Assembly: GCA_018672315.1 (NCBI GenBank)
Contig: CP076053.1
Span: 3,335,827-3,399,826, forward strand
Direction: 5' to 3'
Length of the DNA stretch: 64,000 nt
Origin: Nocardioidaceae bacterium
Lineage (GTDB): Bacteria; Actinomycetota; Actinomycetes; Propionibacteriales; Nocardioidaceae
The notes under the pieces are model-generated. The model did no database searches, was not told where the DNA came from, and saw only the letters and a list, made by a program, of their open reading frames with translations. The translations under genes were made by a program, and so were the position numbers. Positions 8,624 through 64,000 of the stretch are shown here, in pieces (within the stretch, counting starts at the first letter, position 1; each line of letters opens with the position of its first letter).

Positions 8624-10363
8624 TCAGGCGTACGCCCAGACGAGGCCGGCGGTGCACAGCAGCAGGATCACGCTGAGCACCCGGTAGTTCGCCCAGACCG
8701 GCACCGACTGCTCCTTCAGCCGCGTCGTCTCCTCGGTCCAGTAGCGGTTGTCCCAGGTGAGCTCACCGGTCTTCTCGGTGTCCGGCGTCTCTCCCAGCGC
8801 GCTGATGAGGAACAACAGCAGGACCGACAACGTCAGACTCATGCCCGCGACGTAGAGGAACTGCAGGGGGATGTCGAAGGTCGAGAACTCGATCAGCCCC
8901 GACGGGTAGGGCACCGGCAGCGTCTCGAAGACGCCCATCACCTCGATGAGCACGAACGTGAGAGCCCCGAGCGGCTGCATGATCACCAGCGTGCTGAACG
9001 CCGCGGTCGCGTTGATGCGCTTGACCGCGATGCCGAGCAGGAACACGGCCACCACGGGCGGCACCAGGTAGGACAGCACCGACTGCAGGTAGCCGTACAA
9101 CGTGTCGAACTGCGCGATCGTCGGCGCCCACACCACCGCGACCACCAGGGCGCCCACCGTGGAGAGCTGTCCCACGCGGACGAGCTGCTGCTGGCTGATG
9201 TCGGGCTTCACCGGCTTGACGAAGTCCATCGTGACGATGGTGGAGGCGGAGTTGAGGATCGAGTCCACCGTCGAGGTGATCGCCGCGATGACCGCGGCGA
9301 GGATCAGCCCTCGCAACCCCACCGGCAGCAGGTCGAAGACGAGCGTCGGGAAGACCGTGTCGGGGTTCTGCAGGTTCGGGTAGAGCACCAGCGCCATCAC
9401 GCCGGGGAAGATGAACAGGAACAGGAACGCGAGCTTGATGAAGCCGGCCAGCAAGGAGCCCCACCGGCCGTGGTCCAGGCTCTTCGCCCCGAGGCTGCGC
9501 TGCACGACGAGCTGGTTGGTCGTCCAGTAGTAGAGCCCGATCACGATGACGCCGGTGATCAGCCCGGGCCACGGGAGGTCGGGGTCGCCGGGCGGCAGGA
9601 TCAGGCTCATCCGTCGGTCGCCGGCGGCCTCGCGCACGTTCTCGAACGACCCGACGGCCTCGAGGGTGAAGAAGAAGACCAGCGCGCCGCCGACAATCGT
9701 GATGGTCGCCTGGATCGAGTCGGAGATCATGACCGCGCCGAGACCGCCGATGACCGTGTAGACGGCGGCCAGCAGGGCCAGCGCGGCGATCGACACCCAG
9801 ATCGGCACCTGCGGGTAGATCGCCTTGATGAGGATCGCGCCGGCATAGAGCGCCGCCGCCATGTCGATGAACATGTTGGCGAAGAGGTTGAAGCCGGCGA
9901 ATGCCTTGCGGGAGCGGTGGTCGAAGCGGTTCTCGAGGAACTCCGGCAGCGTGAAGACCTTGCTGCGCAGGTAGAAGGGCAGGATGAAGAAGATGAAGAT
10001 GACGAGGATGACCGCGCTCATCCACTCGTAGGCGAAGATCGAGATGCCCTGGTCGTACGCCCCGCCGGCCAGGCCGACGAACGTCGCACCGCTCATGTTG
10101 GTCGCCACCAGCGACAGGCCGACGAACGGCCACAGGAAGTTGCGGCCGCCGAGGAAGTACTGCTCGGACTCGTCGCCGCCCTCCTCCTTGTTCTTCTTCG
10201 AGGCCCGCTGGGAGAACACGAGCGGGATGATGCGGCTGAGGATGAGGTAGCCGATGATCACCGACAGGTCGATCCAGCCGACGGCGAAGTTGGGGGCACC
10301 ACCGCCCCCGCCGCCCTCGGCGGCGAGCAGGACCTCGTCCGTGGTGGCGTTCAGCAGCCTCAT
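8624..10363 (-). CDS. SSS family sodium:solute symporter
   Basis: A 579-residue inner-membrane transporter of the solute:sodium symporter family, closest in look to SGLT-type sugar carriers. It has about 14 hydrophobic segments. Family features include the N-terminal Y-F-L-G-G-R-N-F-L-W-P block after the first helix, L-V-A-T-N-M-S-G-A-T-F, and the sodium-site region A-A-I-T-S-T-V-D-S-I-L-N-S-A-S-T. The ATG at 10363 follows GGAGGG and overlaps the uspA stop (TGATG), so the two genes are co-translated; the 10396 start would add 11 non-homologous residues. A poly-glycine run follows the N-terminus. The transported solute (sugar, myo-inositol or other) is not evident. Confidence 0.88.
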   Translation of the reverse strand: MRLLNATTDEVLLAAEGGGGGGAPNFAVGWIDLSVIIGYLILSRIIPLVFSQRASKKNKEEGGDESEQYFLGGRNFLWPFVGLSLVATNMSGATFVGLAGGAYDQGISIFAYEWMSAVILVIFIFFILPFYLRSKVFTLPEFLENRFDHRSRKAFAGFNLFANMFIDMAAALYAGAILIKAIYPQVPIWVSIAALALLAAVYTVIGGLGAVMISDSIQATITIVGGALVFFFTLEAVGSFENVREAAGDRRMSLILPPGDPDLPWPGLITGVIVIGLYYWTTNQLVVQRSLGAKSLDHGRWGSLLAGFIKLAFLFLFIFPGVMALVLYPNLQNPDTVFPTLVFDLLPVGLRGLILAAVIAAITSTVDSILNSASTIVTMDFVKPVKPDISQQQLVRVGQLSTVGALVVAVVWAPTIAQFDTLYGYLQSVLSYLVPPVVAVFLLGIAVKRINATAAFSTLVIMQPLGALTFVLIEVMGVFETLPVPYPSGLIEFSTFDIPLQFLYVAGMSLTLSVLLLFLISALGETPDTEKTGELTWDNRYWTEETTRLKEQSVPVWANYRVLSVILLLCTAGLVWAYA

Positions 10364-51423: not shown

Positions 51424-52947
51424 TCAGTCGCGGAAGATCTCGATGCTCGCGCCCAGGGCGTTGAGCCGGTCGGCGAGGTCCTCGTAACCGCGGTTGATCA
51501 CGTACACCGAGCGCAGCACCGAGGTGCCCTTGCAGGCCAGCATCGCGAGCAGGATGACCACGGCGGGGCGCAGGGCCGGCGGGCACATCAGCTCGGCGCC
51601 GGACCAGTGCGTCGGGCCCTGGATCATCACGCGGTGGGGGTCCATCAGCTTCACGTCGCCGCCCAGCTTGTTGAGCTCGGTGAGGTAGATCGCGCGGTTC
51701 TCGTACACCCAGTCGTGCAGCAGCGTCTGGCCCTCGGCGACCGCGGCGATGGCGGCGAAGAAGGGCAGGTTGTCGATGTTGAGGCCGGGGAACGGCAGCG
51801 GGTGGATCTTGTCCAGCGGCGCGCGCAGCGGACCGGGCTTGGTGGTGACGTCGACCAGCCGCGTCCGCCCGTTGCCGGCGACGTACTCCTGGCTCAGCTC
51901 GTAGCGGAAGCCCATCTCCTCGAGCACGGCGAGCTCGATCTCCATGAACTCGATCGGCACCCGGCGCACGGTGACCTCGGAGTCGGTCACGATCGCGGCG
52001 GTGATGAGGCTCATCGCCTCGATCGGGTCCTCGCTGGGCGCGTAGTCGACGTCGACGTCGATCTCCTGGCGTCCGGTGACGGTCAGCGTGGTCGACCCGA
52101 TGCCCTCGACCCCGACCCCGAGCTCCTGGAGGTAGAAGCAGAGGTCCTGGACCATGTAGTTGGAGGAGGCGTTGCGGATGACGGTGGTGCCCGGGTGGAG
52201 CGCCGCTGCCATCAGGGCGTTCTCGGTGACGGTGTCGCCCCGCTCGGTGAGCACGATGGGCCGCGCCGGGCCGGTGCCCGGGGTGACCTCGGCCTGGTAG
52301 GCGCCGTCGGAGGGCTTGACCTCCAGACCGAAGGGACGCAGGGCGCTCATGTGCGGCTCGACGGTGCGCTCGCCGAGGTCGCAACCACCGGCGTACGGGA
52401 GGTCGAAGCGCTGCTCGCGGTGCAGCAGCGGGCCGAGGAACATGATGATCGAGCGCGTACGCCGCGCGGCGGTCTCGTCGATCGCGCTGAGGTCGAGCTC
52501 GGCCGGCGGCACGATCTCGAGGTCGTTCTGCGCGTTCAGCCAACGCGTCTCGACGCCGATCGAGTCCAGCACCTCGAGCAGCCGGTTGACCTCCTCGATG
52601 CGCGCGACCTTGCGCAGCGTCGTGCGGCCCTTGTTCAGCAGGCTGGCGCACAGCAGGGCGACGCCGGCGTTCTTGGAGGTCTTGACGTCGATGGACCCGC
52701 TGAGGCGGGTCGGTCCGGAGACACGCAGGTGCACGGGCCCGGACCCCAGGGACACGAGCTGGGAGTCGAGCACCTGGCCGATGCGGGCGAGCATGTCGAA
52801 GGTGAGCTCCTGGTGGCCCTGCTCGACACGCGCCACCGCGCCCTCGTCCATGCCCAGCTCCTCGGAGAGCTGCCGCTGGGTCCATCCGCGGTGGTAGCGG
52901 GCGTCGCGGATCAGGTGGCCGATGCGCTGACGGTGGTCGTCGGTCAT
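51424..52947 (-). CDS. MurA-like enolpyruvyl transferase with N-terminal XRE helix-turn-helix
   Basis: A 507-residue fusion. Residues 7-60 form an XRE-type helix-turn-helix (R-G-W-T-Q-R-Q-L-S-E-E-L-G). The rest is homologous to MurA, which transfers enolpyruvate from PEP to UDP-GlcNAc in peptidoglycan synthesis. Lys92-Asn93 (T-S-K-N-A-G) and Cys189 (A-G-G-C-D-L-G), the phosphoenolpyruvate-reactive position, are kept. The usual F-P-T-D-M-Q-A-Q motif is replaced by F-P-G-L-N-I-D-N-L-P-F, with a 3-residue insertion near the base Asp, so substrate may differ. The ATG at 52947 has TACCGT 6 nt upstream. It may be a second MurA or a regulator that senses a UDP-sugar. Confidence 0.9.
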   Translation of the reverse strand: MTDDHRQRIGHLIRDARYHRGWTQRQLSEELGMDEGAVARVEQGHQELTFDMLARIGQVLDSQLVSLGSGPVHLRVSGPTRLSGSIDVKTSKNAGVALLCASLLNKGRTTLRKVARIEEVNRLLEVLDSIGVETRWLNAQNDLEIVPPAELDLSAIDETAARRTRSIIMFLGPLLHREQRFDLPYAGGCDLGERTVEPHMSALRPFGLEVKPSDGAYQAEVTPGTGPARPIVLTERGDTVTENALMAAALHPGTTVIRNASSNYMVQDLCFYLQELGVGVEGIGSTTLTVTGRQEIDVDVDYAPSEDPIEAMSLITAAIVTDSEVTVRRVPIEFMEIELAVLEEMGFRYELSQEYVAGNGRTRLVDVTTKPGPLRAPLDKIHPLPFPGLNIDNLPFFAAIAAVAEGQTLLHDWVYENRAIYLTELNKLGGDVKLMDPHRVMIQGPTHWSGAELMCPPALRPAVVILLAMLACKGTSVLRSVYVINRGYEDLADRLNALGASIEIFRD

Positions 52948-52953
52948 GGGTGG

Positions 52954-52959
52954 ACGGTA
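52954..52959 (-). promoter_or_regulatory. -10 element TACCGT, leaderless HTH-MurA gene
   Basis: Minus-strand TACCGT is exactly 6 nt before the ATG at 52947. Confidence 0.65.
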
Positions 52960-53035
52960 TCTCGCCGGCGCCCCCGACAGCACGCGCGCGGCCCCGCTGC
53001 TTGAGCCGCGTCGCCCCGGGGGACAGGGTGTCGTG

Positions 53036-54778
53036 ATGAACGAGGAGACCGGGATCACCGGCGACGCCCGTCTGGTGCTGGGACCGCTGCTGCGGTACAC
53101 CGACACGACGACGGCCGCGGTGTGGGTCCAGACCAGCGACGACGCCGACGTGGCGGTCGTCACCGACCAGGGCACCTGGACGGCGCGCACCTTCGCCGTC
53201 CACGGCCACCACTACGCGCTGGTCGAGGTCGAGGGACTCGCGCCGGGCAGCGCCCCGGCGTACGAGGTGACCGTCGCGGGCCGGCACGTCTGGCCGCCCC
53301 CGCCCGATCCCGACCTCCCGTTGCCGCCCCCGGTGCTCGCGACGCTGGAGCCCGACAAGCCGTTGCGCCTGGCCTTCGCCTCGTGCCGCACCTCGGTCGC
53401 GCACGACGAGGAGGGCAACCGCACCCACGGCGTCGACGCCCTGCGGGCGTACGCGCTCGCGATGGCCGGCATCACCGAGCCCCCGGGCACGATGCGCTGG
53501 CCCGACGCGGCCCTGTTCCTCGGCGACCAGGTGTACGCCGACGAGACCACCGAGCCGATGCACGACTTCATCGCCGCGCGGCGTGACATCGAGCAGCCGC
53601 CGGGGGAGGAGCTCGCGGACTTCACCGAGTACGCCGAGCTGTACCGCCTCGCCTGGAGCGACCCGGCGAACCGCTGGCTGCTCTCGACGTTGCCGACCGC
53701 GATGATCTTCGACGACCACGACGTCCGCGACGACTGGAACACCTCGCTGCCGTGGCTGCAGGAGGTGCGCGCCGAGGAGTGGTGGCACGGTCGCATCGTG
53801 GCCGGCCTCGCGTCGTACTGGGTCTACCAGCACCTCGGCAACCTCTCACCGGCCCAGCGGGCGGCGGACGAGATCTACCGCGTGGTGCTCGATCACGACG
53901 GCGCCGAGGAGCTGGACCTCTCCGAGACCCTCGACGCCTTCGCCGAGCGCGTCGACCGTGCGCCGGAGACCTACCGGTGGTCCTTCGTCCGCGAGGTCGC
54001 CGGCTGCCGCCTGGTCGTCGTGGACTCCCGCGCCGGCCGACTGCTGCGCGAGGACCGCCGCGAGATGCTCGACGACGTCGAGATGGAGTGGCTGGACGGC
54101 CAGCTGACCGGCGACGTGGAGCACCTGCTCATCGGCACCTCGATCCCGTTCCTGCTGCCGACCGGCCTGCACCACATCGAGGCCTTCGACGAGGCGCTGG
54201 CCGAGGGCGCGTGGGGCCCGCGGTGGGCACGCGTGGGCGAGCGCATCCGCCAGGGGGTCGACCTCGAGCACTGGGCGGCCTTCCAGAGCAGCTTCCAGCG
54301 GGTCTGCGGCATGGTCGCCGAGGTCGCGACCGGCTCCCGCGGAGCCGCGCCCCGCACCGTCACCTTCCTCTCCGGCGACGTCCACCACAGCTACGTCGCC
54401 GAGGTCGTCGACCTGGGTGACGGCCGCGGCTCCGGGGTCCCCGACCGCAGCACCGTCGTGCAGGCCGTCTGCTCACCGATGCGCAACCCCCTGCACCGGG
54501 TCTACCGCCACGTCACCTTCGCGCTCGCCTACGGCGTCGCCGACGTCATCGGCCGCGTCACCCGGCGTACGAGGACCGCGCCCCGGTCACCGTGGCGCTG
54601 GGACCAGAAGGCAGGACCCTGGTTCGAGAACAACATCGCGACGTTGGACGTCACCGCGTCCGGGTTGCGGATGTGGTGGGCGACCGGAGACGTGGTCGAC
54701 GACGACCACGGCCGACCGGTGCTGCGCCTGGCCGCGGACGTGCACGTCGACGAGACCGGCGTACGCACGGTGCGCTGA
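53036..54778 (+). CDS. PhoD-like (alkaline phosphatase D family) metallophosphoesterase without signal peptide
   Basis: A 580-residue metallophosphoesterase of the PhoD type. It opens with an Ig-like N-terminal region (T-T-T-A-A-V-W-V-Q-T), then metal-site motifs F-A-S-C-R-T, L-F-L-G-D-Q-V-Y-A-D-E, F-D-D-H-D-V-R-D-D-W-N, V-D-S-R-A, and S-G-D-V-H-H-S-Y. Classical PhoD is a Tat-exported phosphodiesterase, but this protein starts M-N-E-E-T-G with neither a twin-arginine motif nor a hydrophobic stretch, so it is predicted to be cytosolic. The ATG at 53036 begins at the first conserved strand. It is divergent from the MurA-like gene. Confidence 0.88.
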   Translation: MNEETGITGDARLVLGPLLRYTDTTTAAVWVQTSDDADVAVVTDQGTWTARTFAVHGHHYALVEVEGLAPGSAPAYEVTVAGRHVWPPPPDPDLPLPPPVLATLEPDKPLRLAFASCRTSVAHDEEGNRTHGVDALRAYALAMAGITEPPGTMRWPDAALFLGDQVYADETTEPMHDFIAARRDIEQPPGEELADFTEYAELYRLAWSDPANRWLLSTLPTAMIFDDHDVRDDWNTSLPWLQEVRAEEWWHGRIVAGLASYWVYQHLGNLSPAQRAADEIYRVVLDHDGAEELDLSETLDAFAERVDRAPETYRWSFVREVAGCRLVVVDSRAGRLLREDRREMLDDVEMEWLDGQLTGDVEHLLIGTSIPFLLPTGLHHIEAFDEALAEGAWGPRWARVGERIRQGVDLEHWAAFQSSFQRVCGMVAEVATGSRGAAPRTVTFLSGDVHHSYVAEVVDLGDGRGSGVPDRSTVVQAVCSPMRNPLHRVYRHVTFALAYGVADVIGRVTRRTRTAPRSPWRWDQKAGPWFENNIATLDVTASGLRMWWATGDVVDDDHGRPVLRLAADVHVDETGVRTVR

Positions 54779-55105: not shown

Positions 55106-56164
55106 TCACATCCCGAGCCGCTGCGCCAGCACCCCACCGACGTAGAGCGACCACGTGCGCGAGACGTGGGAGAAGTCGCGGTAGACGTAGGTGTCCGCCG
55201 CCGCCACCGGGCAGCGACGGCGCTCGCAGGTCAGCCTGTTGGCGTCGACATACCGGCCGCCGGCCGCGCGCGCTGCCGTGCGGTCGCGGTCGCGGATCGC
55301 GTTGTCACGGCGGTCCAGGCGGTTCTCGCACGGTGCGAGCCGGTCGTCCTCCCGTTCGAGACACCTGAGCGGACGGACCGCCGGCCCGCGTCGGGCCACG
55401 CTGCCGAGCACGACGACGTCGTCGGAGACCGCTCCGAGTCGCGAGACGAGACGTCGCATGCCCCTGGCGTACGTGCGCTCGTAGCGCTTCGAGCCCTCTC
55501 GCAGCTGACCGCCGCGGCCGTTGTCGATGTTGGTGTAGGAGTGGGTCGAGACGACCACGAGGTCGGGCGAGAGCTCGGCGATGCGCGCGAGCGCCCACTT
55601 CCGGTACTCCGCGCACGCCGGCCACGCCTTGCCGTACACCCGGGTGCGCATGACCAGCGGTGAGCAGCCGAACTTCACGAACGGCACCAGGCGTACGCCA
55701 CGGTCGGCCGCGGGACCCTCGAGGCCGTTCACCCACATCGAGGCGTGTGAGCTGCCGATGATGGCGACGGTCCGTCGACCCGAGGTGTCGCCCAGGGGGC
55801 AGATGTCGTGCTGGGTGTCGTCGATGTCGAGGCCGGCGATGCAGCGGTCCTCGAGGGTGCCGCGGTCGTCGACGAGTGTCTCCAGCGGGGGGCCGGTGCG
55901 CCGGGGCACACGCCGACCGCGGTCGGCGGCCTGCAGGGCGACGCGCAGCGACTCCCGCACCTGCGCCGCCGTGGCCGGCTGAGAGGACGGCGGCGGGTCG
56001 GTGGTGGGCGGTGCACCGGGCTCCGGCTCGGGATCGGGATCGAAGGGCCAGGGCAGCAGTGTCGAGACGTCCGCCGCCGCCCGAGGCGCGCCCACTGCAC
56101 CCGCGGCCGGCGCCGCGAGAGCGAGGACGACCAGCACGGCCAGGGCCACCCGGACGGCTCTCAC
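55106..56164 (-). CDS. Stand-alone SGNH domain protein 1 (OafA-type SGNH), exported
   Basis: A 352-residue secreted or anchored protein, last of a six-gene SGNH cluster. A signal sequence (about 4-30) is followed by a Pro-rich spacer, then the SGNH domain. Block I is I-I-G-S-S139-H, with F-G-C-S-P-L and S-T-H-S-Y-T-N as the middle blocks, and Asp330/His333 in Y-R-D-F-S-H-V-S-R-T-W-S as the catalytic pair. Paired cysteines (D-I-C-P-L-G-D, K-F-G-C, C-E-R-R-R-C-P) suggest disulfides outside the membrane. It is most like its upstream neighbour, sharing G-K-A-W-P-x-C-A. Its start overlaps that gene's stop (ATGA). Acyl transfer to, or removal from, an envelope glycan is inferred. Confidence 0.85.
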   Translation of the reverse strand: MRAVRVALAVLVVLALAAPAAGAVGAPRAAADVSTLLPWPFDPDPEPEPGAPPTTDPPPSSQPATAAQVRESLRVALQAADRGRRVPRRTGPPLETLVDDRGTLEDRCIAGLDIDDTQHDICPLGDTSGRRTVAIIGSSHASMWVNGLEGPAADRGVRLVPFVKFGCSPLVMRTRVYGKAWPACAEYRKWALARIAELSPDLVVVSTHSYTNIDNGRGGQLREGSKRYERTYARGMRRLVSRLGAVSDDVVVLGSVARRGPAVRPLRCLEREDDRLAPCENRLDRRDNAIRDRDRTAARAAGGRYVDANRLTCERRRCPVAAADTYVYRDFSHVSRTWSLYVGGVLAQRLGM

Positions 56165-57204
56165 AGCACCACCCGCAGCTCGCGGGCCAGCAGCGGGCCG
56201 ACGTGCAGTGACCAGGTGCGGGTCACGTGGGAGAAGTCGCGGTTGACGAAGTGGCCGGCAGCCACGACCGGGCAGCGGCGCTTCACGCAGAGCAGGCGGT
56301 TCGGGTCGTAGAACGAGGCGCCGACGGCGAGTACGGCGCGGCGGTCACGGGCGTTCATCGCCCGGGTGCGCTTGTCCAGACGCTGCACGCAGGGCTTCAG
56401 GCGCATGTCGTTGGCCTCGAGGCAGACCGTGGGTCGCGTGCGCGGCACGCGCGCCACCGTGTCGCCGAGGATGGTGACCTCGTCGGCGACCGCACCGAGA
56501 CGGCGTCCCAGCTTGCGGGTGCCGGCAGCGAACGCCTTGTCGTAGCGGGGCGTGTCCTCGCGGATCAGACGACCGTTGCGACCCTCGATGTTGACGTAGT
56601 GGTGGCCGGCGACGACGACGGCGTCGGGGCCCAGCTCCGCGATGCGGTCGAGCGCCCACTCCCGCCACGCGGCGCACTCTGGCCACGCCTTGCCGTCGAC
56701 CTGCGTCTTGCGCACGATCGGGGAGCAGCCGAACTTGAAGAACCCCACGAGTCGGGTGCCGCCCGCCGCGGCGGCTGCGTCGAGCCCGGGCACCCACATG
56801 GTCGCGTGGGAGGAGCCCAGGAGCACCACCGTGCGTTCGCCGGCGGGGTCACCGAAGGTGCAGATCTCGTGCCTGACCTCCCGCTTGTCCGCGCCGCAGC
56901 TGTCGGGGAAGCCCCACCCGTCCTCACCGAGCCGGCTGAACTGCGGGGTGGTGCGGGCAGGCGCACGGCGACCGGCGTCCGCCGCAGCCAGACCCCGGCG
57001 CAGCTGCCTGGACAGCGACGTACGGTCGTCGACGGCTGCCGACGCCGCGACGGTCGCCGTCGACGGGGCCACCGAGGCGGCCACCTGGGACGGCGGGGTG
57101 GCGGTGGCCGGGGCCGCCGCGAGCGCGAGCGACGCCGTCAGCGCCGTGAGGAGAGGGAGGAAGGCAGAGGGCACGGCGGACTCCGGGTGGGTCTGGTCGA
57201 TCAC
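56161..57204 (-). CDS. Stand-alone SGNH domain protein 2, exported
   Basis: A 347-residue protein with an N-terminal signal or anchor (about 12-35) and an Ala/Thr/Ser/Val-rich spacer to residue 60. The SGNH domain has L-L-G-S-S132-H-A-T-M-W, F-F-K-F-G-C-S-P, A-G-H-H-Y-V-N and Asp323/His326 in N-R-D-F-S-H-V-T-R-T-W-S. Close similarity to protein 1 over the whole domain indicates a recent tandem duplication. The GTG at 57204 is 16 nt after a possible -10 (TACCGT), and this is the only junction in the cluster without overlap, so proteins 2 and 1 may form a second transcription unit. The acceptor is unknown. Confidence 0.85.
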   Translation of the reverse strand: MIDQTHPESAVPSAFLPLLTALTASLALAAAPATATPPSQVAASVAPSTATVAASAAVDDRTSLSRQLRRGLAAADAGRRAPARTTPQFSRLGEDGWGFPDSCGADKREVRHEICTFGDPAGERTVVLLGSSHATMWVPGLDAAAAAGGTRLVGFFKFGCSPIVRKTQVDGKAWPECAAWREWALDRIAELGPDAVVVAGHHYVNIEGRNGRLIREDTPRYDKAFAAGTRKLGRRLGAVADEVTILGDTVARVPRTRPTVCLEANDMRLKPCVQRLDKRTRAMNARDRRAVLAVGASFYDPNRLLCVKRRCPVVAAGHFVNRDFSHVTRTWSLHVGPLLARELRVVL

Positions 57205-57220
57205 TGACGCTGCGAGAGGA

Positions 57221-57226
57221 ACGGTA
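57221..57226 (-). promoter_or_regulatory. Possible -10 TACCGT for the SGNH2-SGNH1 pair
   Basis: Minus-strand TACCGT lies 16 nt before the GTG at 57204, in the 87-bp gap after the oafA-type gene. A small CGGCCC-GCA-GGGCCG hairpin (57236-57250) just upstream may end the preceding transcript. Confidence 0.4.
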
Positions 57227-57235
57227 GTCCCGGGA

Positions 57236-57250
57236 CGGCCCGCAGGGCCG
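57236..57250 (-). terminator. Small hairpin after the OafA-type gene
   Basis: CGGCCC, a 3-nt loop and GGGCCG form a 6-bp GC stem, 42 bp downstream of the acyltransferase stop. Too short for certainty. Confidence 0.35.
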
Positions 57251-57291
57251 AGGTCGCGCGACGCGTGACCGAATCGCGTCGTTCGGGCCCT

Positions 57292-59544
57292 TCAGCCTGC
57301 TGATGCCGTCACGTCGTCGGACGAGCTCCCGGTCGTGTCGCCGCGTCCGATGTCGAGGTCCAGCCGCTCCCACAGGGCGGGCGCGGCGTACTCCGCCCAC
57401 GAGGCGCTCACGTGCTGCACGTCGCGGTAGACGCTGAGGTCGGCCGCCACGAGCGGGCACCGACCGTCCACGCACAACATGTCGGTCAGGGGCACCAGCT
57501 CGGCGCCGGTGCCTTCGAGAGCCTCCTGCGCCAGCTGGTCCATGGCGGTGACGGTGCGGCTGATCGGGAACGTGCAGTCGCCGATGGTGGCGTCGCGCCG
57601 GGAGAGGCAGTCGGCCGGACTCTGGTCGAGGAAGTTGAGGTCGCCGAGCAGACGTACCTCCTCGGTCACGGGGGCCAGTGCCTCAGCGGTGCGGCGTACG
57701 CCGTCGCTCCAGGCCGCGTCGCGGGCCGGCCCCTCGATGACGCTGCCGCCGGCGTCGAGCGCCTGGAAGTGGGTGTGCGTACCGAGGATCACAGCGGCCG
57801 GCTGGAGCTTCTCGATCTGGTCGAGCGACCAGTCGCGCCACTGGTCGCACTCGGTGTAGGACCGGTCGACGTCCACCCGGAGGATCTCGATGTCGATCGG
57901 GGTGCAGCCGAACTTGATGAGTGGCACCACGCGTACGCCGGCCTGGCTGGCGACCCGGTCGACACCCGGTGACCACATGTTCAGGTGGGAGTCGCCCATC
58001 AGCACGACGGTGGTCGCGGCGTCACGGTCGCCCGCGGGACAGATGTCGTGGCTGGTCTCGTCGGGCTCGGCGGTGCAGCGCTCGTCGAACTGCACACGGT
58101 CCTCGTTGAGCTCCAGCAGGTCCTGACCCAGCGGGAAGGGGATCGGCGCCTGCTGGGCGGCGTCGGAGGTGACCACGTCGAGCGCAGCCGTCAGGAGTGC
58201 GCCTGCGTCGGGCGCGTCCGCGCCGGCGACACCGTCGCCGGCAGACGGCGCCGCGGGCGCGCCCAGGGCCACGGTCGAGGCGCCGTTCGACTGCTGCGCC
58301 GCGACGTACCAGGTCGAGCCCTGCACCGCGAGCACCGAGATCGCGAGGGCTGCGGGCCACAGCACCAGCGAGCGGCGCTGACCTCGCAGGTCGAGCTCCT
58401 CCACGCCGTGGCGCCAGGGGTTCTCGATCAGGTAGTAGCTGATGGCGCCGACCGGGACCGCCAGCACCATCAGGCCCGTGGCCTCCCACACGGTGAGGTC
58501 GCGCCCGAGGTACGACGCGGTCACGATGAGCAGGGGCCAGTGCCACAGGTAGAGCGAGTAGGAGATGTCGCCGATCCAGCGCACCGGGGCGATCTCGATG
58601 AGACGGCTGGCGTACGTCGGACCGGGCATCGGGCGGAAGGACCCGTCGGGGTTGCGGGGGTGCGGCAGGCCGGCCGCGAGCATCGCCGCCGTGCCGAGCA
58701 CCGGCAGCAGGGCCCACGCTCCCGGCCACGGCGTGGTCGGGTCGACCGAGGCCAGGCCGATGACGATCGCGATCATGCCGCCGGCGGCGAGCACCTCGCG
58801 GCGGCGCGTGGTCAGCCACGCCGACAGGGGAGCGGCCACGCAGGCCAGCAGGGCTCCGACGCCGATCTCCCAGGCGCGGGCGAGGGTCGAGAAGTACGCC
58901 GTGCTGGGTGAGGTGCTCGTGGCGTACAGGGACCACGCGAAGCAGGCCACCACGGCGATGGCGGCCACGATGCCGACCGTGCCCGCGGTCGTGCGGCGCC
59001 CGCGTCGTGCGGCGACCCAGGCGAGGCCGAGCACCAGCACCGGCCAGACGATGTAGAACTGCTCCTCGACCGCGAGGGACCAGAAGTGCTGGAACGCCGA
59101 GGGGGACAGGTCGGCGGCGAAGTAGTCTACGCCCTGCAGGGCGTAGTGGATGTTGGCGGCGAAGAACGCCGCCCACAAGGCGTCGCGCCCGATCCGGTCG
59201 GCCTCCACGAAGGGGAGGATCAGCGCCGCGACAGCCACGGTGACCACCAGCAGCACCGTCGCGGCCGGCAGGATGCGGCGGGCGCGGCGGGCGTAGAAGC
59301 CGCCGATCGACACGGTGCCCGTCTTGCGCACCTCGCGCACCAGGAGCCCGGTGATGAGGAAGCCGGAGACCACGAAGAAGACGTCGACGCCGAGGAACCC
59401 GCCGCCGAAGCCGGGGACGCCGGCGTGGGCGAGGAGCACGAGCAGCACGGCGAAGCCGCGCAGGCCCTGGATGTCGCGGCGCGAGGCCTTCTCGCCCACG
59501 GGCAGGGTGCCGAAGCGCTGCCAGAAGCTGGCCGGGGCGCTCAC
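57292..59544 (-). CDS. OafA-type membrane acyltransferase-3 with C-terminal SGNH domain
   Basis: A 750-residue two-domain O-acyltransferase. The membrane AT3 domain (about 15-370, ten or so helices) has G-L-R-G-F-A-V, the active-site histidine in L-L-A-H-A-G, and G-V-D-V-F-F-V-V-S-G-F. A linking helix near 385 leads to the SGNH domain with Ser519 (M-G-D-S-H-L-N-M-W) and Asp708/His711 (Y-R-D-V-Q-H-V-S). In OafA/OatA relatives AT3 moves an acyl group across the membrane and SGNH transfers it to a glycan. The GTG at 59544 overlaps the upstream SGNH stop (GTGA) and follows GGAGGA. It is the only member of the cluster with an acyl-export domain. Confidence 0.93.
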   Translation of the reverse strand: MSAPASFWQRFGTLPVGEKASRRDIQGLRGFAVLLVLLAHAGVPGFGGGFLGVDVFFVVSGFLITGLLVREVRKTGTVSIGGFYARRARRILPAATVLLVVTVAVAALILPFVEADRIGRDALWAAFFAANIHYALQGVDYFAADLSPSAFQHFWSLAVEEQFYIVWPVLVLGLAWVAARRGRRTTAGTVGIVAAIAVVACFAWSLYATSTSPSTAYFSTLARAWEIGVGALLACVAAPLSAWLTTRRREVLAAGGMIAIVIGLASVDPTTPWPGAWALLPVLGTAAMLAAGLPHPRNPDGSFRPMPGPTYASRLIEIAPVRWIGDISYSLYLWHWPLLIVTASYLGRDLTVWEATGLMVLAVPVGAISYYLIENPWRHGVEELDLRGQRRSLVLWPAALAISVLAVQGSTWYVAAQQSNGASTVALGAPAAPSAGDGVAGADAPDAGALLTAALDVVTSDAAQQAPIPFPLGQDLLELNEDRVQFDERCTAEPDETSHDICPAGDRDAATTVVLMGDSHLNMWSPGVDRVASQAGVRVVPLIKFGCTPIDIEILRVDVDRSYTECDQWRDWSLDQIEKLQPAAVILGTHTHFQALDAGGSVIEGPARDAAWSDGVRRTAEALAPVTEEVRLLGDLNFLDQSPADCLSRRDATIGDCTFPISRTVTAMDQLAQEALEGTGAELVPLTDMLCVDGRCPLVAADLSVYRDVQHVSASWAEYAAPALWERLDLDIGRGDTTGSSSDDVTASAG

Positions 59545-60650
59545 GACAGCAGTCCTCCCGGCTCCCGGGGTGCGATGCCGATCTGCGGCGCCAGCAGCGG
59601 GCCGACGTGCTTGGACCAGGTGCGCGAGACGTGGAAGAAGTCGAAGTACATGTAGGTCAGGTTCGCGAGGATCGGGCAGCGCCCGCGCAGGCAGATGAGG
59701 TCGTTCGGGTCGTGGAAGTCCACGGGCGGGTCGAAGAGACGGGACGGCGCCTGCGCGACGGCGGTCGCGAGGATCTCGTTGTGGTGACGGGTGTCCGCGG
59801 TGACGGGGGACTCGCAGCGGCGCATCGAGGCGCGCTTGCGCTTCAGGCACTTCACCGGGTCCTCCTTCAGGTAGTTGATGTCACCGAGCACGACGACGCG
59901 GCCCGCTGAGTCCTGGAGACGCTCGATCGTCTCCGAGACACCGTCGAGGAACGCCTGGTCGCGCTCGTCCTCGGGCATCGGTGTCGTCTCGCCGTCCCGG
60001 CTCATGGTGAAGTTGCGGTGGCCCGAGGTCACCACGACGTCGGGGCGGATCTGCTCGATCTGCTCGTGGGCCCACTCCCGCCAGGTGAAGCACTCCTCCC
60101 AGGGACCCAGGTCGAAGCGCCACATCCGCAGCTCGTACGGCGGGCAGCCGAACTTGATGATCGGCAGGAGCCTGATGCCCGCCTCGCGGGCGGGACGCTG
60201 GATGCCCCGGATCCACATGTTGAGGTGGGAGTCGCCGAGCAGCACGACCGTGCGGTCGCCGTCGAGGTCCCCGAGCGCGCAGATGTCGGCCGTGGTCTCA
60301 CCGGGATCCGCCGTGCAGCGCGCGGGGCCGTTCCACTTGTTCTGCCGCAGCTTCTGCAGCCTCGGCTGCGTCCGGGGCGGGATACCCCGGCCGCGATCGG
60401 CGCGACGGAGGCTCGTACGCAGCTCGCGACGCAGCTGGGCCATGTCGGCGGCCGGCCCCCGGGTGCGCGCGACGAGCCGGAGATCGGCGCCGCTCGCGAC
60501 GCGGCTCGCCGCGTCGCTGGTGCCGCCGTCGGCCGACGTCGAGGTCGAGGAGGTGCCCAGCAGGGGGAGGAGACCGGCGACAAGCACCAGCAGGAGGGCT
60601 CGGATCACGGCCAGGAGCGTACGCCGCCGCGCGTCGTGCGTCCTGCTCAT
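59541..60650 (-). CDS. Stand-alone SGNH domain protein 4, exported
   Basis: A 369-residue protein. A basic start (M-S-R-T-H-D-A-R-R-R) and one hydrophobic helix (about 12-33) predict export or N-terminal anchoring. The SGNH domain keeps L-L-G-D-S141-H-L-N-M-W, I-I-K-F-G-C-P-P, T-S-G-H-R-N-F, V-V-L-G-D-I and Asp337/His340 in F-D-F-F-H-V-S-R-T-W-S. It and the OafA-type neighbour alone carry G-D-S-H; the other four have G-S-S-H. Its stop overlaps the oafA-type start, and its own ATG overlaps the stop of SGNH protein 5. The function is inferred as acyl transfer or de-acylation outside the membrane. Confidence 0.85.
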   Translation of the reverse strand: MSRTHDARRRTLLAVIRALLLVLVAGLLPLLGTSSTSTSADGGTSDAASRVASGADLRLVARTRGPAADMAQLRRELRTSLRRADRGRGIPPRTQPRLQKLRQNKWNGPARCTADPGETTADICALGDLDGDRTVVLLGDSHLNMWIRGIQRPAREAGIRLLPIIKFGCPPYELRMWRFDLGPWEECFTWREWAHEQIEQIRPDVVVTSGHRNFTMSRDGETTPMPEDERDQAFLDGVSETIERLQDSAGRVVVLGDINYLKEDPVKCLKRKRASMRRCESPVTADTRHHNEILATAVAQAPSRLFDPPVDFHDPNDLICLRGRCPILANLTYMYFDFFHVSRTWSKHVGPLLAPQIGIAPREPGGLLS

Positions 60651-61684
60651 CGGACACCCACCCGGGTCGCCATGAGGGAGCCCACCCGCTGGGACCAGAC
60701 CCGCGAGACGTGCGAGGCGTCGCGGTAGACGTAGCGACCGGCGGCAGCGACCGGGCAGCGGCCCTGAACGCAGATCAGGTGGTTGGTGTCGAAGAAGTCC
60801 GCACCCTCCGCGCGCACCGCGTCGCCGGTCGCCCGCACCAGGGCGCGGTGCGCCGGGTCCTCGGGCGACTCGCACCGGCGGTAGGACCGCTTCGTGCGCT
60901 GCAGGCAACGCTGCGGATCCCGGGTGCGGGGTGTCACGTCGCCGAGCACGACGACGTCGTCGGTGTGGGGGAGCACCCGGGAGACCAGGCGGGCCGCGCC
61001 CGCGGTCACCTCCTGCGTCCACGCCCGGCCCTCGAGGAGGGACCCGTCGTCGCCGAGCACGTCGAACGCGGAGTGCGACCCGACGATGACGGTGTCGGGA
61101 GCGATGCGCGCGATGGTGTCGACGGCCCACTCGCGGAAGTCCGAGCACGCCTGCCACTCGGTGCCGTCGCGGGTGCTGCGCAGGTCGTAGGGCGTGCAGC
61201 CGTACTTGAACAGGCCGACGACGCGCGTGCCGCGCCGCTCGGCCGCGGCGGTGAGCCCTGCCATCCACATCGTCATGTGCGAGCTGCCGAGCGCTACGAC
61301 GGTGCGGTCTCCGGCGACGTCGCCGAAGGTGCAGATGCCGTGGCGCGAGGTCGTCCCCGAGCTCGCGCAGATGCCGGGTCCGTCCCACAGGTTCCTGCGG
61401 ATCCGGTCGACCGCGGGTCGGTGGCGCGCGGAGACGCGCCGGCCCTCGTCGGCCCGCGTCAGCGACTGGCGGAGCTGCGCGACGAGCCTGTCGGTCGCGG
61501 GCCGCACGAGCGCCTCGCGCTCGGCCACGCTCGGGAGCGGACGGTCCTGCGTGGCAGCGGCGGCGGGTGTCGCTGTCGGGACGGCCGCGGCGGTGGAGGC
61601 GGTGGAGGCGGCGCCGAGGGCCGTGGCAGCGGTGAGCAGGACCGTCGTCACGAGAGCTCGAGCACCGCCGCGTCCGGACCTCAC
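60647..61684 (-). CDS. Stand-alone SGNH domain protein 5, exported
   Basis: A 345-residue protein with an N-terminal signal/anchor (about 9-35) and Ala/Thr-rich spacer. The SGNH domain shows A-L-G-S-S135-H-M-T-M-W, L-F-K-Y-G-C-T-P-Y, V-G-S-H-S-A-F, V-V-L-G-D-V and Asp322/His325 in Y-R-D-A-S-H-V-S-R-V-W-S. The cysteine pattern (I-C-T-F-G-D, C-L-Q-R, C-E-S, C-V-Q-G-R-C-P) is common to the cluster. Both ends overlap their neighbours by 4 nt. Which polymer it modifies is unknown. Confidence 0.85.
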   Translation of the reverse strand: MRSGRGGARALVTTVLLTAATALGAASTASTAAAVPTATPAAAATQDRPLPSVAEREALVRPATDRLVAQLRQSLTRADEGRRVSARHRPAVDRIRRNLWDGPGICASSGTTSRHGICTFGDVAGDRTVVALGSSHMTMWMAGLTAAAERRGTRVVGLFKYGCTPYDLRSTRDGTEWQACSDFREWAVDTIARIAPDTVIVGSHSAFDVLGDDGSLLEGRAWTQEVTAGAARLVSRVLPHTDDVVVLGDVTPRTRDPQRCLQRTKRSYRRCESPEDPAHRALVRATGDAVRAEGADFFDTNHLICVQGRCPVAAAGRYVYRDASHVSRVWSQRVGSLMATRVGVR

Positions 61685-62904
61685 CGCATCAGTCCGACAC
61701 GCTCGGCGAGCGCGGCACCCACGTGACGCGCGTACGTGGCGGAGACGTGACCGAGCCGGTCACGGAAGACGAAGCGTCCACCTGAGGCGACGGGGCAGCG
61801 GGCGTCGAGGCACACGAGCTCGCCCGGGTCGTAGTAGTCGCCTCCGGCTCCCTCGGCCGCCTCACGCGTCAGGTCGTTGAGGTGCACGGTGTCCAGTGTG
61901 ATGCGCTGCTCGCACCGCCCGTAGTTGCCGCGCCGCGACTCCGCGCAGCGTCCCGGGTCGAGGGTGCGGCGCGTGGTGTCACCGACCACCGTGACCCGGC
62001 CGCCCGCGTCCGTCACCGGCGCCAGCCTGGTGACGAGTCCGCTGACGCCCCCGCGCCAGGCGTCGTCGAAGGAGGACCCGGTCAGTGCCGATCCGCTCGG
62101 TGAGGAGATGTCGACCCAGGCGTGCGAGCCGGCGATGACGAGCTCGGGCCGTTGCGCGACGGCGTCGTCGATCGCCCAGTCGCGCCACTGCATGCACTCC
62201 GTCCACGGGACGTAGCCGCGCCGCATCGTGAACGTGTACGGCGCGCAGCCGTACTTGACGTAGACGAGGAGGCGTACGCCGGCACGCTCGGCCTGGTCGC
62301 GGAGGCCCGGGAGCCACATCATCACGTGGGAGGAACCGATGAGCACCGCGGTGCGGTCGCTCGCCCGGTCACCGACGGCACACACCTGGTGGCGCGACTC
62401 CCCGGGCTCGGCGGTGCACCGGGCCGGGAGGGGACGGGCGTCGTCCCGCAGAACCGAGCCCTGCTCGGCGAGCCCGCGGGGGAGACGCTCGCGCCGGTCG
62501 GCCCGTTGCAGGGCGTCGCGCAGGTCGCCCTCGATGGCGCTGACGGGGCTCGGCGTCTCGGCCGGGGCGACCGCGGAGGTCGTACCGACGCCCACCTGCG
62601 GCGTGCCGAGCGCACCACCGGCTCCGGCGGGCACCGAGCGCGGGCCGGCCGCGCGGGAGGCCCGCTCGGTCGTCAGGGGCGTGACCAGCCCCGCGTACGT
62701 CGCGTCGAAGCGCCCCACGGCGACCGTGGTGACCGCCGTGCTGACGGCGGAGTCGACGGCCGGCGCGATGCCGGTGGAGGGTTCGGACCTGGCGGTGGAC
62801 CAGCCGATCATCGCCGCGACCAGACCGAGGGCGCCGACGACCGCCGCGCCGCGACGCACGTGGCGCCGAGGCGTGGTCTCGTCGGCTCGCGGGCCTGGCG
62901 TCAC
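61681..62904 (-). CDS. Stand-alone SGNH domain protein 6, first gene of the cluster
   Basis: A 407-residue membrane-anchored protein. Cytosolic residues 1-18 are basic, one helix spans about 19-36, and a long Ala/Thr/Val/Pro-rich stalk runs to 120. The SGNH domain has L-I-G-S-S192-H-V-M-M-W, V-K-Y-G-C-A-P-Y, A-G-S-H-A-W-V-D and V-V-G-D-T. The catalytic pair reads F-R-D382-R-L-G-H386-V-S, three residues between Asp and His, where all five paralogues have two, so it may be inactive or differently built. The GTG at 62904 follows GGAGA, with a -10 (TACCGT) further upstream. It overlaps SGNH5 by 4 nt and heads the operon. Confidence 0.83.
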   Translation of the reverse strand: MTPGPRADETTPRRHVRRGAAVVGALGLVAAMIGWSTARSEPSTGIAPAVDSAVSTAVTTVAVGRFDATYAGLVTPLTTERASRAAGPRSVPAGAGGALGTPQVGVGTTSAVAPAETPSPVSAIEGDLRDALQRADRRERLPRGLAEQGSVLRDDARPLPARCTAEPGESRHQVCAVGDRASDRTAVLIGSSHVMMWLPGLRDQAERAGVRLLVYVKYGCAPYTFTMRRGYVPWTECMQWRDWAIDDAVAQRPELVIAGSHAWVDISSPSGSALTGSSFDDAWRGGVSGLVTRLAPVTDAGGRVTVVGDTTRRTLDPGRCAESRRGNYGRCEQRITLDTVHLNDLTREAAEGAGGDYYDPGELVCLDARCPVASGGRFVFRDRLGHVSATYARHVGAALAERVGLMR

Positions 62905-63049: not shown

Positions 63050-64000
63050 TCAGTCCTTCTCGTCCCCCGCGATGGCCTCGGCGACGCTGGTGACCACCTG
63101 GGAGTCGAAGACGCTCGGGATGATGAAGCTCGCGTTGAGCTCGTCGTCGCCCACCACCCGGGCGATCGCGTCGGCGGCCTTGAGCATCATCTCGACCGTG
63201 ACATCGGTGGCGCGGGCATCGAGAAGGCCTCGGAAGACACCGGGGAAGACGAGCACGTTGTTGATCTGGTTGGGATAGTCCGACCTGCCGCTGGCCACGA
63301 CCGCCGCGTGACGGCCGGCCACCGCCGGATCGATCTCGGGGTCGGGGTTGGCGAGGGCGAAGACAATGGGGTCCGGCGCCATCGTGGGGATCCACTCCTC
63401 CGCGAGGATGTCGGGCGCGCTGACCCCGATGAAGACGTCCGCCCCCTGCAACGCCACGTCGAGCCCGCCGGTGAGGCGGCGCGGGTTCGTGCGTGAGGCG
63501 AGCTCGGCCATGGCCGGTGCCAGGGACGTGTCATCGCGGCTAAGCACGCCCTCCTTGTCGACCACGACGACCTCGCCCACCCCGCCGGCCAGGAGCAGGG
63601 TGACGATGGCCGAGCCGGCGGCTCCGGCGCCCGCGACCACGACGGTGACGTCGCTCAGGTCCTTCTCGACCACCCTCAGCGCGTTCTTCAACGCTGCGGT
63701 GACCACGATCGCCGTGCCGTGCTGGTCGTCGTGGAAGACGGGGATGTCGAGCATCTCCTGCAGGCGACGCTCGACCTCGAAGCATCCCGGCGCCGCGATG
63801 TCCTCGAGATTGATGCCGCCGAAGCCGGGCGCGATCATGGCGACGGCCTGCACGATGTCGTCGGGATCCTGGCTGGCCAGACAGATCGGCCAGGCGTCGA
63901 TGTCCGCGAAGCGCTTGAAGAGCGCGGCCTTGCCCTCCATCACCGGCAGCGCCGCCCCGGGGCCGATGTTGCCGAGACCCAGCACGGCGGATCCGTCCGT
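63050..64000 (-). CDS. NAD-dependent malic enzyme, C-terminal part (5' truncated by window edge)
   Basis: The visible 316 residues belong to malate dehydrogenase (oxaloacetate-decarboxylating), which makes pyruvate, CO2 and NAD(P)H from malate. The frame is open to the window edge; the GTG at 63985 is internal, since T-D-G-S-A precedes V-L-G-L-G-N-I-G-P as in full-length enzymes. Metal-site residues are in N-L-E-D-I-A-A-P and F-H-D-D-Q-H-G-T-A. The NAD fold is G-A-G-A-A-G-S-A, and N-P-D-P-E-I-D and N-Q-I-N-N-V-L-V-F-P-G are diagnostic. The N-terminal catalytic Tyr is outside the window. It is upstream of and separate from the SGNH operon. Confidence 0.92.
   Translation of the reverse strand, partial: TDGSAVLGLGNIGPGAALPVMEGKAALFKRFADIDAWPICLASQDPDDIVQAVAMIAPGFGGINLEDIAAPGCFEVERRLQEMLDIPVFHDDQHGTAIVVTAALKNALRVVEKDLSDVTVVVAGAGAAGSAIVTLLLAGGVGEVVVVDKEGVLSRDDTSLAPAMAELASRTNPRRLTGGLDVALQGADVFIGVSAPDILAEEWIPTMAPDPIVFALANPDPEIDPAVAGRHAAVVASGRSDYPNQINNVLVFPGVFRGLLDARATDVTVEMMLKAADAIARVVGDDELNASFIIPSVFDSQVVTSVAEAIAGDEKD

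Follow-up and report, generated by a model that had tools for sequence, protein, structure and literature searches.

Can a single exporter of acyl groups supply several separate enzymes on the outer face of the cell? The question is raised by a row of six genes, g1 to g6, at positions 55106 to 62904 of a 64,000-nucleotide stretch of the genome of a soil-type actinobacterium of the family Nocardioidaceae (assembly GCA_018672315.1, contig CP076053.1, positions 3,335,827 to 3,399,826), hereafter the window. All six encode an SGNH domain, and one of them, g3, also encodes the membrane domain AT3. Envelope acylation has been described on two plans, an MBOAT exporter with a separate SGNH protein or a single AT3-SGNH fusion (PMC12148441), and the matter of AT3 exporters with separate SGNH partners was left open (PMC9558356). 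We found that the array is real, unusual and lineage-specific, and that it is part of a recurrent pairing of AT3-SGNH proteins with detached SGNH proteins. We propose, as a reading about as apt to prove right as wrong, that the acyl groups exported by one AT3 domain are taken up by its own SGNH domain and by several detached, exported SGNH paralogues, and placed on envelope glycans.

Six SGNH genes and one AT3 domain

The first-pass annotation of the window had described six consecutive minus-strand SGNH genes at this place, and the array is confirmed. In order of transcription, across 62904-55106, it consists of the following.

g6, 61681..62904, minus strand: first gene of the array, 407 amino acids; predicted stand-alone exported SGNH protein with an N-terminal hydrophobic stretch; block I GSSH, block V D-x3-H; PF19040 E 7e-23
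g5, 60647..61684, minus strand: 345 amino acids; predicted stand-alone exported SGNH protein; GSSH; PF19040 E 2e-28; overlaps g6 by 4 nucleotides
g4, 59541..60650, minus strand: 369 amino acids; stand-alone SGNH protein, predicted to be exported or anchored; GDSH; PF19040 E 3e-34; overlaps g5 by 4 nucleotides
g3, 57292..59544, minus strand: 750 amino acids; AT3-SGNH fusion, apparently of OafA type; PF01757 E 3e-29 and PF19040 E 8e-28; overlaps g4 by 4 nucleotides
gap between g3 and g2, 57205..57291, minus strand: 87 nucleotides; the sole uncoupled junction of the array
g2, 56161..57204, minus strand: 347 amino acids; predicted stand-alone exported SGNH protein; GSSH; PF19040 E 4e-29; 50% identity to g1
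g1, 55106..56164, minus strand: last gene of the array, 352 amino acids; predicted stand-alone exported SGNH protein; GSSH; Pro-rich linker; PF19040 E 2e-29; overlaps g2 by 4 nucleotides

PF19040, the Pfam SGNH family described as 'fused to AT3 domains', matches all six products (E 7e-23 to 3e-34), with PF01757 (Acyl_transf_3) in g3 only (E 3e-29), as first annotated. In g3 the two domains lie on one chain (PF01757 at 24-370, PF19040 at 489-724), which gives the two-domain AT3-SGNH plan, and the AT3 motifs R/K-x10-H (R29-x10-H40) and RxxR (at 86) are both present. Judged by domains and motifs, g3 is an AT3-SGNH acyltransferase of the OafA/OatA type. The five stand-alone proteins of the window score 82 to 119 bits against PF19040, and a pair outside it, g7 and g8, described below, 86 to 91 bits, for a cut-off of 27.

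The frames of g1 to g6 are open and have the strong third-position guanine-plus-cytosine bias typical of real genes. The junctions, when recomputed, were those first listed: four overlaps of 4 nucleotides (three GTGA and one ATGA) and one gap of 87 nucleotides, in which a scan found no inverted repeat. Every stand-alone protein has an N-terminal hydrophobic stretch and nothing comparable further along the chain, and sequence alone thus predicts export, or anchoring at the outer face, for all of them, as had been said of the five in the array.

All SGNH genes of the genome lie in one region

The genome (3.60 Mb, one contig) contains eight PF19040 genes, all inside one stretch of about 18 kb, which rules out a chance grouping. 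The two remaining genes form a second stand-alone pair about 8 kb beyond the end of the window, joined by a GTGA overlap and lying directly behind a sortase gene; the free SGNH copies thus number five in the array and seven with this nearby pair.

g8 and g7, L010:7776-8822 and 8819-9868: stand-alone pair, reading G-N-S-H and G-N-S-K in place of G-[DS]-S-H

The sortase gene (PF04203; L010:9896-10651) is on the same strand, 27 nucleotides upstream of the pair, and its product has a lipobox-like start; we read it as a putative class E sortase.

The first-pass annotation had placed one AT3 protein at the centre, and the census agrees with it: g3 is the only AT3-SGNH gene of the genome, and two further AT3 genes are both far off, one of them a stand-alone and the other fused to what looks by eye, from its sequence, like an AMP-ligase/carrier-type protein. 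No MBOAT exporter (PF03062) is encoded in the genome, which rules out an MBOAT protein as acyl donor. The locus is therefore not a PatA/PatB-like system with an MBOAT exporter, nor a split pair in which the exporter lacks an SGNH domain, since the clustered exporter, g3, carries one.

Active site, cysteines and fold

The catalytic Ser, Asp and His are invariant in all eight PF19040 proteins, with D-x3-H replacing D-x2-H in g6 to g8. The features first noted as shared by g1 to g6 are indeed in all six (G-[DS]-S-H, K-[FY]-G-C, an Asp/His pair and eight cysteines), and the eight cysteines are kept in g7 and g8 also. Block I reads GDS in g3 and g4 only, GSS in g1, g2, g5 and g6, and GNS in g7 and g8. 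A GDS block is therefore not a common property of the stand-alone proteins, which is irrelevant to their membership of the Pfam family. GSSH is absent from the 72 fused rows and from the 42 other stand-alone rows examined, among which are some near-duplicates and a small number of fusions wrongly counted as stand-alone; GNS occurs in 12 of the 72 fused rows.

What would the loss of the block I Asp do? In Staphylococcus aureus OatA, where this Asp acts as a guard against water, changing it to Ala or Asn boosted hydrolysis about 3.8-fold and transfer to sugar 6.6- to 8.9-fold (PMC9487903). The stand-alone proteins that lack it are therefore probably active, and may be less discriminating against water or between acceptors. 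The block III Asn is missing from the stand-alones, where the alignment places a His, and likewise from g3; OafA and OafB also lack the canonical oxyanion residues (PMC7448272).

The first-pass annotation had called the stand-alone proteins OafA-type, and profile, disulphide spacing and fold all bear this out. The cysteine pairs proposed for g1, by spacing, are C108/C122, 14 apart as in the linker pair C383/C397 of OafA; C167/C184, 17 apart against 14 for C439/C453; C313/C318, 5 apart as in C567/C572 (OafA positions from PMC7448272); and C268/C279. The spacing is identical to that of OafA in two of the three comparable pairs, including the pair in the AT3-to-SGNH linker, and for this reason each stand-alone resembles an OafA-type half set free with part of the linker, or SGNH-extension, still attached. 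OafA-like spacings, that of the linker pair included, are preserved throughout the eight PF19040 proteins. An AlphaFold2 model of g4 (mean pLDDT, the predicted local distance difference test, 74) has as its top PDB match 6SE1, the periplasmic domain of OafB (E 3e-8), with GDSL esterases and PatB ranking below it. A sequence search of the PDB, unlike the fold search, returned only noise.

Origin of the copies

Pairwise identity among the copies is 28 to 53%. All seven stand-alones fall into a single clade in the trees (support 100/99), which argues that the array grew by duplication within its lineage; g3 itself clusters with the AT3-SGNH fusion of a relative, G298 (82-83% bootstrap). In G298 a single AT3-SGNH gene lies at the corresponding place with a malic enzyme gene adjoining (56% identical malic enzyme neighbour in L104). 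As a clue to the substrate, conservation of the neighbourhood amounts to this malic enzyme, shared with one relative. Constraining all eight copies to one clade was not rejected (p-AU 0.229), so that descent of the seven from g3 is compatible with the data. The stand-alones thus go back to a single SGNH half, detached from an OafA-type fusion and multiplied in the source lineage.

Among the matches listed from 342 family genomes, the nearest relatives are nearly all fusions. No counterpart of the seven-paralogue array was found in the relatives searched, and a scan of named genomes with g4 found no relative. The idea of a conserved gene set as such does not survive, the seven stand-alones being paralogues. 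In a tree of 81 rows, nine changes between the fused and stand-alone states are needed.

Detached SGNH genes next to AT3-SGNH genes in relatives

Does the pairing recur elsewhere? It does, on a smaller scale. We made a complete list of the family genomes that have four or more PF19040 matches. Among these, clusters of one AT3-SGNH with at least three stand-alones were confined to the source genome and two Aeromicrobium genomes, so that the kind of cluster predicted for relatives by the first-pass annotation does exist; stand-alone genes adjoining an AT3-SGNH gene are found in many others. The Aeromicrobium loci, in A. massiliense (L116) and Aeromicrobium sp. IC_218 (L117), contain one fusion with four and three stand-alones, respectively, within about 15 kb. 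Their SGNH genes are interleaved with two CDP-glycerol glycerophosphotransferase genes of the teichoic-acid-building type, and in L116 also with a glycosyltransferase gene; several of the stand-alones start, by eye, with lipobox-like signals. By its position in the trees, in another clade, the Aeromicrobium array appears to be independent of the source array.

A second arrangement is a three-gene row found in eight Nocardioides-like genomes.

L113, L114, L122, L140, L141, L142, L144 and L151: AT3-SGNH gene, middle gene lytic-transglycosylase-like (weak SLT_2 match), stand-alone SGNH gene

The trees of the fused and of the detached SGNH domains of this module largely agree, as expected for a co-inherited unit. 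The transglycosylase-like gene suggests peptidoglycan as the acceptor, in the Nocardioides-like module only. In G026 and G081 a stand-alone is closest in the tree to the neighbouring fusion, and outside the source family fusion and stand-alone are neighbours in G581, G665 and G446.

These loci are natural cases of an AT3-SGNH protein encoded with detached SGNH proteins, some of them in conserved modules, and they make the question of AT3 exporters with separate SGNH partners directly testable. As the first-pass annotation had supposed, the arrangement does not seem to have been described: we found no match in the reviews consulted, and no description of an AT3-SGNH fusion paired with detached SGNH proteins in the literature consulted (mainly PMC9558356, PMC9833829, PMC7448272, PMC9487903 and PMC12148441).

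Comparison with known systems

OafA and OafB, the O-antigen acetyltransferases (PF01757, a structured linker and PF19040), share their two-domain plan with g3, and the stand-alones have the same profile, the linker and core disulphide spacing, the triad and, for the g4 model, the fold. The differences are five to seven extra, separately encoded SGNH proteins, and a Gram-positive actinobacterial host in which no O-antigen is expected. OatA, the peptidoglycan O-acetyltransferase, divides its labour as g3 is predicted to: the AT3 domain loads acetyl from acetyl-CoA onto an outward-facing Tyr, and the Ser of the SGNH domain then delivers it to the glycan (PMC12148441). However, the single OatA gene is necessary and sufficient, has no detached SGNH paralogues, and has the block III Asn in place of the His seen here.

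PatA/PatB, DltB/DltD and AlgI/AlgJ/AlgX have exporter and SGNH protein on separate chains, as with the detached proteins here. AlgI even serves two SGNH partners, AlgJ and AlgX (PMC9487903), and the PatA/PatB operon can include the gene of an esterase, Ape1. In contrast to these MBOAT systems, the exporter here is an AT3 protein, the SGNH family is PF19040, and the partners are more numerous. The nearest functional precedent is a constructed strain in which WecH, an AT3-only protein, replaced PatA as donor for the separate SGNH protein PatB (PMC9558356), an artificial pairing as against the natural one-to-many supply proposed here. Aeromicrobium offers the closest likeness in gene content, with its one fusion and its three or four stand-alones, but differs by its independent clade, by the apparently lipoprotein-like signals of some stand-alones and by the teichoic-acid-type polymerases in the cluster.

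What the array may do

In the scheme that we propose, the AT3 domain of g3 would remove an acyl group (probably an acetyl) from acyl-CoA on the inner side and present it outside. The SGNH domain of g3, together with g1, g2, g4 to g6 and probably g7 and g8, would then pass it on, via the catalytic Ser, to hydroxyl groups on glycans of the envelope, and acceptor or position probably varies from copy to copy. The data show the domains, export-type N-termini, intact triads, gene coupling, common origin of the stand-alones and parallel pairing in relatives, as well as the OafB-like fold of the g4 model; the passage of acyl groups from AT3 to detached SGNH proteins, the direction of transfer and the nature of the acceptor are inferred. 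A broader claim is advanced tentatively, as possible but somewhat doubtful: that this is a natural one-to-many system, in which one AT3 protein is the exporter for a family of detached SGNH transferases, with up to eight SGNH active sites and a different envelope glycan or position for each enzyme, and which has arisen more than once in Nocardioidaceae through duplicated SGNH halves.

Several observations weigh against the scheme. The g3 fusion already holds an SGNH domain of its own; the block I Asp is gone, replaced by Ser or Asn, in six of the seven stand-alones; no acceptor pathway was recognised beside the array; and PF04464 polymerases are absent from the genome. Their absence rules out a TagF-type teichoic acid as acceptor in the source strain, and the teichoic-acid context of Aeromicrobium is therefore not transferable to it. 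In other genomes, tandem pairs of stand-alone genes that have no AT3 gene beside them are common, and solitary stand-alone PF19040 genes occur with no AT3 gene within about 9 kb (short SGNH frames that are fused genes cut by contig ends were excluded from this count). An adjacent AT3 gene is therefore not obligatory. The joint system envisaged by the first-pass annotation remains likely for the array, but not as a general rule.

The strongest rival explanation is that some or all of the detached copies remove acyl groups. The stand-alones would then mostly be O-acyl esterases, similar to Ape1, trimming the groups added by g3, and the locus would be a write-and-erase cassette and not a set of several writers. 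Most characterised SGNH proteins are esterases, ape1 sits in the pat operon (PMC12148441), solitary stand-alones exist, and both the loss of the block I Asp and the rarity of GSSH fit such a role, given the increased hydrolysis of the S. aureus OatA variants (PMC9487903). However, the same changes raised transfer to sugar more than hydrolysis; the profile, the K-[FY]-G-C block and the cysteines match the fused protein, in a family whose characterised members are transferases (PMC9487903); and g4 retains GDSH. As a marker of Ape1-like esterases, the loss in block I is suggestive, and no residue is decisive. We consider this explanation unlikely, while taking it seriously.

A mixed set, with labour divided in one array between stand-alones that transfer acyl groups and others that remove them, is improbable in our view. 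Such a set would account for GDSH in g4 against GSSH, GNSH or GNSK in the other stand-alones, and 28 to 53% identity leaves space for differing roles, but none of the sequence markers applied splits transferases from esterases inside PF19040.

Alternatively, the copies may be redundant duplicates with little separate function, retained by chance, as might be imagined from seven proteins derived by duplication from one ancestor and from the lack of a counterpart array in close relatives. The copies are old, as their identities show, and yet open frames, triad, eight cysteines and export signals are intact, which argues that they are under selection and makes this scenario very improbable. Equally remote is an accidental grouping of secreted GDSL enzymes, lipases or esterases, that have no connection with AT3: the general SGNH fold is shared and GDSL esterases are among the fold matches, but we reject it on the specific PF19040 profile, the OafA-type linker cysteine pair, the best match to 6SE1 and the interleaving with the AT3 gene by 4-nucleotide overlaps.

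Other loci and neighbouring genes

Tandem SGNH pairs without an adjacent AT3 gene were seen at L118, L119, L120, L124, L125, L143, L145, L146 and L147, and several are old paralogue pairs common to more than one genome. At L167 (genome G127), an AT3 frame is directly followed by an SGNH frame that is out of phase with it, which points either to a frameshift in a fused gene or to a natural split.

Around the array, the following genes were noted in the window.

malic enzyme (part inside the window), 63050..63985, minus strand: upstream neighbour of the array; PF03949 and PF00390
PhoD-like phosphatase gene, 52946-54778, plus strand: converges on the end of the array
MurA-like open frame, 51424-53190, strand opposite to the PhoD-like gene: putative identity, from our own reading of the translation

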